A DNA stretch of 64,000 bases. Source: Scatophagus argus. Its lineage: Eukaryota; Chordata; Actinopteri; Scatophagidae. The stretch lies in the NCBI RefSeq assembly GCF_020382885.2, contig NC_058501.1:8556001-8620000 (forward strand). The letters are read 5' to 3'. Position numbers and translations under genes: made by a program. This document shows positions 22,550 through 25,500 of this stretch, piece after piece (position 1 is the first letter of the stretch; each line of letters begins with the position of its first letter). The notes beneath the pieces are model-generated. The model made no database searches, was not told where the DNA came from, and worked only from the letters and a program-made list of their open reading frames with translations.

Positions 22550-25500
22550 ATGGGAGTTGCATACAGCGTTGGAGAGTAAGTAAAACGAACCATGTAGATG
22601 TGTAAACACTGTTATGCTGGGTCTGGAACATGGTGCTGTTGAATGTGTCAACTAATGTAAGCAAGAAAATGTGAGCTTCAACATGCAACGACAATTTAAC
22701 TCTGAAAAGATTTTAAATCCAGTCTTCAAAATTGAAATTTGCAAAGGAAGTCAGGGGACACTGTCTTTTGTCAGTGCACATGTGGGAAGAGGGAGGGGAA
22801 GAGAAAAGTGAGGAGCTTGATTGAGGTTAGACATTCCTAAAGTCAAAGTGGGTCTGACGTGACTTCCAGGATTTCATCATTGATTTCCACAGAAGTGATT
22901 CTCTCTGGGGAAACTGAAGAATGGAGCAGAATCAAATATAAATAAATCCAAAAAAGGAGTTCCCTGATGTTCTCATCAGCCCAGCATGAGGTGGCTCAGT
23001 TTTCCTGCTATACATGTCCAAGCGTGTCTTAACAGATTTTTCAGTACGTTAATGTGACATTTTTTTCCTTGCGAGAAACAGGGGTTGGGCCAACTGTCAT
23101 TGAGCATATTTCAAAGAATTACTGTATTTCAGTTAAGATGACATATGGCGATTCTGCTGCAATGGAATTCTTTTTATTTTCTGTCAACATTATGCCATTG
23201 TAATTTCATAGTTGTGTTAGATGTTAGAGGCACTTGCTTTTAGTACTAAAAACAATTCATTTTATCAATAGCAATAGCATGAAGTCTATTTAAGTACAAT
23301 ATACAATGATTATCTGCAAGTAAAAGAAAATGTACTTTGTCCTTTGTTTCTGCAGGGTTGACCACCTCTACACATTCTTTGTGCAGTGGTCACCAGAAAT
23401 CTACACTAAGGGCTACAAGAAGCACCGCAAGCCCCACTACCTCATTAGAGAGAAACATCAGAAGCGGTATCTGGTAGTGGAGAACAATAAGGTGGCTGTG
23501 ATCAACAAACTCCTCAGTAACTCTGTCAGTCCCTCTGCTAAAAACTGGGAGGTAAGTTTTGCACAAACATGCGATTTCAGATTAGCACTATACTGTTTAA
23601 ACTTTTGCAGACCAAAGTCATTAAGTATCCCCAACTTACAGTAACTGAGGCACCGAACTTACTTGGCAAGTTTCCCAGAGCTTGTGGGAAATCCCACCGC
23701 CTCTATATATGGACATCCGTTCTTTCTCCACTCCCAACACCCTGCACTTCTTTTTCCTGTTTATTGAGAAAGGAAACTGTTATCAGAGCTAACCAATGAG
23801 AAGCCCCTCCATTCAAGTCTGCAACCAATCACATTTCGAATACAGAAAGTGAAAGTAATCCAGAAGGTACAATAGTGAAGAAAGCTCACCAGTGTGGTTA
23901 ACAGACATGCGGCACTGTGTGCAGAGCTTGACGGACAAATCGAGAACTATGAAGCTGCTACCAGATCATATCAAAGTGCTTTATTTTGCCAGTGAATGTA
24001 TGGAGCCATATGTTGAGGTAGGACTACACATGTAAGAAGATGCAGTGTACTGTACTGCATGGGCTAAACTGTACTTAATTGAGGGTATTTTTTTTTATTG
24101 ATATATCATTCACCCACCCATCCTTCCTAGTGAGCTTATTATAGGGTCAAACAGTTAGAAATTCACTTGTCATGCTGCTGTGTTAAACTTGACAATAACA
24201 TGTTTACCCTTTCACCTTTATGTGATTGCTGTTTGTAAACGAGTCAGTCAACCCCAGACTACAGATCTGTGTAATATAAAGCAAAATTTGAGAAAAAAAA
24301 AAATAGAATTATGTGTGTGACGAGCTTGAGTATTAAAAACTAGTTGCATCTTGTGCCTCCAGATTATCACAGTAAAGGATCCCAAGCGCCGCCTGAGTTT
24401 GTGTAGCTCAGAGGACTCTGAGGCAGAAGAACCTGAGTACCAGAAGGAAGACGACGATGATCTCCCTGTCCTGTGCAACCACAGCCAGCTTCTGGATGAA
24501 GACCACCTAAAAAGAGTAAGCTACTGCAACATTTCAAAATAAACTATGTGGACAATTTGGCAGTGATTATGGCCACTGAATAAAAGTTTCGCTTTGATGA
24601 AATGTGTTCATTATTCTTAGACCTTTCAGTATGAGAAGTTTTGATTGATGCCTCCTATCCTACAGCTTGCTGTTCACATGCCAGCAAGGACTCAGGGCTA
24701 TCCATGGCAACTGGTCTACAGCACAGCCATCCATGGGAGCAGCTTGAAGACCCTGTACAGAAACATGGCCAGCCTGGACAGCCCAGTGCTACTGGTCATC
24801 AAAGACATGCACAAAAAGGTCAGCATCTTTATCAGGTCTCTCCAAGTCTTTTCAATACACAGATGTAGCTGATTAACATAATCGTGTCTGTGCACCTCTC
24901 ACAATCTGGTGTTTTGCTCTTTTCAGGTGTTTGGTGCTTTTTCTTCAGATCCATTCAGAGTCAGTAAATACTGCTACGGCACAGGAGAGACCTTCCTGTT
25001 CAGCTTCAACCCTGACTTCCAGGTAAAACTGTAATTCTTTTTGTTACCTTTACAACAGTTGTAAATTATATCTACAAGCAAGTCTAAGGATGGGTGTATA
25101 GTTATTACAAGAAACTACTCTCCTTTGCACATCCATTTAAAAGCAGCTGTCTATCTTAGAAAAAAACACAGTCTCAGAAAAGTAATAATTTAATCCTTTG
25201 AAATGTGTACACTAGGGCTGAGTACAAGTTCCTTATGTGTCATATTGGGTGCCTTCACAGGCATACAGGTGGAGTGGTGAGAACTCCTACTTTGTGAGTG
25301 GCAACCTGGACTCTCTGCAGATTGGTGGAGGAGGGTAAGTTTGATTTCCCCTTTACAATACAGTGATATGAATTAATAAAAAGCAAGACCATAAAATAAT
25401 CACTAATAATTACTACAACTACTTGTAATATATCCACGGTTACAACACTTGTATCTGAAAGCATAAAACATCAACAACTTTGAAAGGTTTGACATTAAAC

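Follow-up and report, generated by a model that had tools for sequence, protein, structure and literature searches.

Mammalian NCOA7 yields a long form and a short form from a single gene, and the Scatophagus argus genome contains two ncoa7 copies. The window analyzed here, i.e., the whole 64-kb stretch C9:8556001-8620000 (from a 570.7-Mb genome of 48 contigs), holds one copy, and contig C19 holds the other; judging from sequence, both outputs appear to map to these two duplicates. We propose that a segment within an intron of the C9 copy is the fish orthologue of the NCOA7-B/NCOA7-AS start, that it would be switched by interferon regulatory factors (IRFs), that its product would bind the V-ATPase, and that the long and short forms would be split over the two duplicates. 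We give this reading a probability of roughly 0.78. The leader exon and the promoter motifs were read in this one fish genome only; unless a contig is named, positions are those of the window.

The initial annotation had described a hidden first exon in an ncoa7 intron, with ATG codons at 23907 and 23949, a donor at 24018, and a junction from 24017 to 24363. Each of these elements was found at these positions, and the junction keeps phase 0. The features involved are as follows.

22550..22575, plus strand: coding part of predicted exon 1a (MGVAYSVGE), phase-compatible with exon B; a prediction
23356..23551, plus strand: exon B, upstream of the leader-bearing intron; diverged
23907..24017, plus strand: alternative first coding exon (leader), 37 codons from ATG 23907 or 23 codons from ATG 23949
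24018..24019, plus strand: splice donor GT, score 7.40, second-best among the 50 GTs of the intron
24363..24515, plus strand: first shared exon, which the leader joins in phase 0
24666..24818, plus strand: TLDc exon (spliced reading and Pfam TLD)
24927..25022, plus strand: TLDc exon (spliced reading and Pfam TLD)
25261..25334, plus strand: TLDc exon (spliced reading and Pfam TLD)
25522..25661, plus strand: last TLDc exon, with the stop codon inside (spliced reading)

The intron between exon B and 24363 (811 bp) holds the leader exon, whose end at 24017 abuts GTAGGA. When the intron GTs were scored with a donor matrix, the top score was 7.47, at 24031. An acceptor precedes 24363. The two ATG codons share one frame, and ATG 23949 is the start closest to the mammalian leader start. 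The spliced short product is 227 amino acids long from ATG 23949 or 241 amino acids long from ATG 23907, with the stop in the last exon. Pfam TLD matched this product at an E value of 5.1e-51 and was the sole family at E values up to 1; the TLDc domain stands alone after the leader, with five exons downstream. The initial annotation had called the host intron "intron 2." The exon does lie in an ncoa7 intron, and the numbering holds only if predicted exon 1a (ATG 22550) is real. Within 22518-22575, an acceptor-like tract precedes MGVAYSVGE and a donor follows it, so that the gene may have another first exon here. The leader-bearing intron also contains a direct repeat of 14 nt (23676 and 23922), which looks like chance and was set aside, and an Rfam scan gave no matches at the gathering threshold.

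The leader had also been said to align with that of human short NCOA7 in length, phase, and pattern, and comparison with solved structures bore this out. The best of 11 phmmer matches to the 241-amino-acid product was 7uzj chain T ("Nuclear receptor coactivator 7B"; 221 amino acids; E value, 8.4e-88), with query residues 17-239 aligned to residues 5-220, no gap in the leader part, and 132 of 216 aligned residues identical overall. The fish leader scored 38 (BLOSUM62) against the 7uzj_T leader, with 8 of 20 residues identical and 12 of 20 positive, a score reached by none of 200,000 shuffles. It ranked first among 2,712 donor-ended open 20-codon stretches on both strands of the window (runner-up, 15) and first among 43,360 open 20-codon stretches in the six frames of the window (runner-up, 24). 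Among 17 donor-ended candidates in the intron, it alone had a positive score. A tblastn search of the whole window with the 21-residue mammalian leader returned the leader exon first, at an E value that is weak when taken alone (0.099; next, 2.6). Residue 25 of 7uzj_T is the last before IITV, and the fish exon ends at the same residue and in the same phase.

Published descriptions of the mammalian exon can be compared with this alignment. The first exon of NCOA7-AS is reported to encode 25 amino acids (PMC4742741). The reverse complement of a published human guide targeting the isoform-specific exon (PMC8648102) encodes PDEEPF, the counterpart of fish ECMEPY, and the strands predicted for NCOA7-AS at residues 10-15 and 24-28 (PMC8329711) land on the best-matching fish leader residues, IKVLYF and VEIIT. 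The PDB sequence, the exon end and phase, and the gene order described below support homology between the window exon and the mammalian NCOA7-B/NCOA7-AS leader. An aldo-keto reductase idea for the leader was dropped, as PMC4742741 argues against it.

The TLDc part of the product may bind the V-ATPase. Mutations at six mouse residues are reported to disrupt or weaken this binding (PMC8608904), and all six positions are kept in the fish sequence; five of them were placed by eye and located by peptide string, and the sixth, in a glycine run, is identical in the alignment. Searches for TLDc relatives in bacterial and viral collections gave 21 and 1 pattern matches, respectively, none of which was confirmed, as expected for a vertebrate gene.

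Upstream of the leader exon lie the elements of a candidate promoter.

23686..23695, plus strand: GGGAAATCCC, kappaB-type site, the only exact copy in the 64-kb window
23704..23711, plus strand: TATA-like TATATATG, with 93 such matches in the window
23793..23797, plus strand: CCAAT box (CCAATGA), a motif match
23825..23829, plus strand: CCAAT box (CCAATCA), 32 bp from the first box
23845..23856, plus strand: GAAAGTGAAAGT, match to the IRF element (IRF-E), the only IRF-E in the 64-kb window, its exact copy occurring once

The CCAAT boxes at 23793 and 23825 and the GGGAAATCCC site at 23686-23695 are present as the initial annotation gave them, and GAAAGTGAAAGT fits the IRF-E consensus, RAAASYGAAASY. 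A TATA-driven start at 23704 would leave an upstream ATG at 23796, with a short frame stopping at 23852, and would put the CCAAT and IRF sites into the 5′ untranslated region behind that ATG. Placed by the typical spacing rule for CCAAT and IRF sites, a TATA-less start near 23880-23900 would fit better. The internal promoter proposed earlier for this position agrees with the motif content, which is what points to it.

These motifs can be explained in another way. The exon may be real and homologous and its promoter may serve tissue or hormonal expression (ovary, kidney), with the IRF-E and kappaB sites incidental. The 64-kb window has 1 IRF-E match, the 50 kb upstream of it has 4, and the 50 kb around the C19 gene has 2. 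This frequency of approximately 1 per 23 kb speaks for incidental sites; at that rate, approximately 0.015 matches are expected per 354-bp stretch. The ISRE (interferon-stimulated response element) core occurs 9 times in the window versus 4.1 expected, and the CCAAT pair is the only one at about this spacing in the window, yet 0.96 would be expected by chance. The combination, however, is harder to obtain. In 5,000 dinucleotide shuffles of 23553-23906, the ISRE core was found in 146, the kappaB motif in 83, two CCAATSR motifs in 45, the core plus kappaB in 2, and all three in none. Of 1,273 real 354-bp segments of the window (step, 50), 4 contained all three motifs, every one of them overlapping the stretch upstream of the leader. 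Both sets of figures flatter the combination because the motif set was fixed only after the initial annotation had named the motifs. The combination also sits directly upstream of an exon whose human counterpart is reported to be interferon regulated from an internal promoter (PMC8329711, PMC8005160). We consider the tissue or hormonal explanation unlikely.

A genome search with the short protein found other TLDc genes, the closest of which was at 10.03 Mb on C19. This gene is a full-length ncoa7 (LysM, GRAM, exon A, exon B, and TLDc) followed by two hint3-like copies in tandem (stretch L024, 3870-5247 and 7713-9381); one hint3 was found after the window gene, so that hint3 follows both ncoa7 copies, as in duplicates with a common neighbor. 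The IITI exon of C19 is preceded by an intron of 144 bp, versus 811 bp for the homologous intron of the window. No leader was found in this 144-bp intron (best score, 4 among 24 open stretches) or on the plus strand of the 50 kb around the C19 gene, where the best donor-ended stretch scored 17 among 1,240 and the best open stretch scored 27 among 18,295, approximately 29 kb upstream of the gene. The fish oxr1 region likewise gave no leader match (best, 11 among 738 donor-ended stretches). Exon B is identical to the human exon at 25 of 49 aligned residues in the window copy and at 38 of 49 in the C19 copy.

The reverse pattern was obtained for the long form. Human queries gave no credible match to the long-form part in the window and none in the 50 kb upstream, where one row (E value, 0.18) touches the TLDc glycine run. 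Once weak rows had been filtered out, comparison of 1,016 open reading frames (≥30 amino acids) of the C19 stretch with C9:8506001-8620000 yielded exon B, the TLDc exons, hint3, and repeat-like stretches. A whole-genome search with the C19 long-form pieces hit 8 places, none near C9 8.58 Mb: 4 on C19, 3 at C9 5.14-5.16 Mb (oxr1-like), and 1 on C15. Of the two ncoa7 copies, the leader was found only at C9, and LysM/GRAM was found only at C19. The initial annotation had taken the gene for an ordinary ncoa7 in which the exon supplies an additional start; in this genome, the searches found LysM/GRAM in the C19 duplicate and none for the window copy. The most economical interpretation is a partition of the long form and the interferon-type short form between the duplicates.

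Neighbors and phylogeny identify the window gene. The hint3 pieces downstream of ncoa7 (29792-31163) are followed by a Costars-domain gene and by a methyltransferase at 36878-38340 (one Pfam match, below the cutoff), which we take to be trmt11-like, giving the C9 order ncoa7, hint3, Costars-domain gene, trmt11-like gene. Human NCOA7 is followed by HINT3 and TRMT11. HEY2, the upstream neighbor of human NCOA7, gave no row in the window (E values up to 5) or in the 50 kb upstream and the C19 stretch (E values up to 0.01). In the tree, the window gene falls outside the OXR1 group (99/98), and the C9 and C19 copies group with moderate support (83/86). The window TLDc domain is 66% identical to 7uzj_T and 61% identical to fish oxr1; the fish oxr1-like gene is 87% identical to zebrafish 4acj over TLDc. 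An OXR1 identity for the window gene was ruled out by the neighbors and the tree.

The two copies might still not be a pair from the teleost duplication: the window gene could be a short paralogue that is older or specific to the lineage, and the leader might never have been part of the C19 gene. The moderate tree support for grouping C9 with C19 leaves room for this, and in the stretches read, only the C9 copy had trmt11-like and Costars matches beside it. Against it, hint3 follows both copies, both lie outside the OXR1 group, and the single mammalian gene has both forms. We regard such an origin as rather improbable. That the exon is a decayed, NCOA7-B-homologous relic that is no longer transcribed is scarcely credible, given an ungapped 20-residue match and an intact ATG, frame, donor, and acceptor; because the search of the C19 copy found no leader, decay would also leave the species without this leader form.

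Several other observations lie near these subjects. The Costars-domain gene between hint3 and the trmt11-like gene (33621-34190, minus strand; Pfam Costars, 3.1e-31) is ABRA-like and may have been retained as an ohnologue from an OXR1-ABRA block, because human ABRA adjoins OXR1. The oxr1-like gene at C9 5.12-5.16 Mb (minus strand) shares its contig with the window ncoa7 and lies approximately 3.4 Mb from it. At C6 7.909 Mb (stretch L037, 1435-2181, minus strand), a 248-amino-acid open frame has a TLDc match and looks like IFI44, another interferon-linked TLDc family. Another gene that combines GRAM-like and TLDc parts and has a long branch in the tree is located at C15 10.264-10.269 Mb (stretch L029, minus strand). 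Within the window, open frames at approximately 28113-28824 are shared with C19 at approximately 10.040 Mb (one row shows 85% over 53 residues) and look like a dispersed element, and two near-alike translated stretches (LLCGVCMFSLCLRGFSPGSPAS...) at 5024-5380 (minus strand) and 11781-12128 (plus strand) belong to an interspersed repeat.

The reading that we prefer would work as follows. The intron ahead of the last five ncoa7 exons would provide both the internal promoter and the first coding exon of a short product of approximately 227 amino acids, consisting of the leader and the TLDc domain. IRF-family factors would act at 23845-23856, NF-Y would act at the CCAAT boxes, and NF-kappaB would possibly act at 23686-23695, so that interferon or microbial signals would switch the promoter on. 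Through TLDc, the product would bind the V-ATPase and raise endolysosomal acidity, as reported for the human isoform. The C9 copy would be the leader form, and the C19 duplicate would be the long form. We infer promoter use, interferon induction, V-ATPase function in the fish, and a split after the teleost duplication from the exon, motif, and gene content described above.

A number of findings weigh against this proposal. The site at 23845-23856 had been annotated as an ISRE; GAAAGTGAAAGT is present and fits IRF-E but is one base off the strict ISRE, as it ends in AGT rather than the canonical ACT. For this reason, IRF1-type control is probably at least as likely there as control by ISGF3. 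The total of 7 IRF-E matches in 164 kb also means that such sites are not rare. Two of them lie upstream of the long C19 gene, at C19 10027132 (minus strand; approximately 1.7 kb before the LysM exon) and at C19 10019883 (plus strand; GAAAGTGAAACT; approximately 9 kb before the LysM exon), and because of these, the long copy may also respond to interferon. Since predicted exon 1a would join exon B in phase, a second C9 protein is possible: exon 1a, exon B, and the TLDc exons may give a predicted 278-amino-acid TLDc-only product that does not carry the leader. Relative-rate counts of unique changes (18 versus 14) revealed no difference. In the tree, the C9-C19 fork is unstarred, and the fork joining both copies to 7uzj_T is open. 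In grass carp liver, a gene named NCOA7 is reported among the genes lowered in a fasting comparison that is unrelated to immunity (PMC4374334).

After the teleost duplication, interferon-driven and constitutive NCOA7 may have become two genes, making the window gene a V-ATPase regulator dedicated to antiviral defense, with an inducible promoter and a leader that are older than the fish-mammal split; we hold this view tentatively, at a little short of an even chance. If it is true, the interferon-type start of NCOA7 is older than that split, and the leader itself is conserved, beyond being a mere convenient start codon. The locus would then offer a clear example of how two genes can arise from the two promoters of a single gene. 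The roles of the two forms would be separable by simple fish knockouts, which is hard in mammals, where the forms have exons in common. Because the forms would be separate genes, the interferon arm could be removed in fish by a whole-gene knockout.

A canonical ISRE reportedly lies upstream of the human short-isoform exon, in work attributed to Yu in 2015. The viral protein K13 acts via NF-kappaB. A table of the genes that K13 affects in human endothelial cells lists NCOA7 with a value of 6.1 (PMC2732924). Human NCOA7-AS is reported to be induced by interferon-beta and lipopolysaccharide from an internal promoter (PMC5614904, PMC8329711, PMC8005160), and in human and mouse macrophages, Ncoa7 belongs to a set of 11 genes whose alternative-first-exon change on inflammation is conserved (PMC8260223). 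No fish NCOA7 short isoform was named in the open-license literature covered (mainly titles and abstract openings), from which genome annotations and closed papers may differ. The gene is mentioned, with no isoform named in the passages concerned, in the grass carp study above and in two other fish studies: "ncoa7-like" is in one enrichment row for largemouth bass, and ncoa7 is among 7 overlapping genes for black rockfish sperm.

The closest known system is NCOA7-AS/NCOA7-B (NCOA7 isoform 4). The window gene resembles it in having a unique short first exon, the same exon end and phase, TLDc exons downstream, an IRF-type site upstream, and hint3 and trmt11-like neighbors. It differs in that the mammalian gene also makes a long LysM/GRAM form, of which no part was found in the window gene. 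The fish leader has 23 residues versus 25, and an extra in-frame ATG would add 14. The fish IRF box ends in AGT, and interferon induction is a property of the mammalian isoform, whereas the fish exon is known from its sequence.

OXR1 and its OXR1-C form belong to the same TLDc family, and OXR1-C, a TLDc-only form, is also reported to have a unique first coding exon (PMC5614904). The window gene, in contrast, has NCOA7 neighbors, falls outside the OXR1 group, and carries a leader that has no match in the fish oxr1 region. For the proposed split, the nearest parallel is zebrafish mitfa/mitfb, for which PMC3489725 suggests that functions of one mammalian alternative-promoter gene have been partitioned between duplicates. 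Loss of both mitfa and mitfb gave no abnormalities of the retinal pigment epithelium (PMC3489725), and because of that outcome, partition claims need functional tests. The mitf pair, as described there, is a transcription factor split by tissue, whereas the split proposed for ncoa7 is one between a long form and an interferon-type short form.
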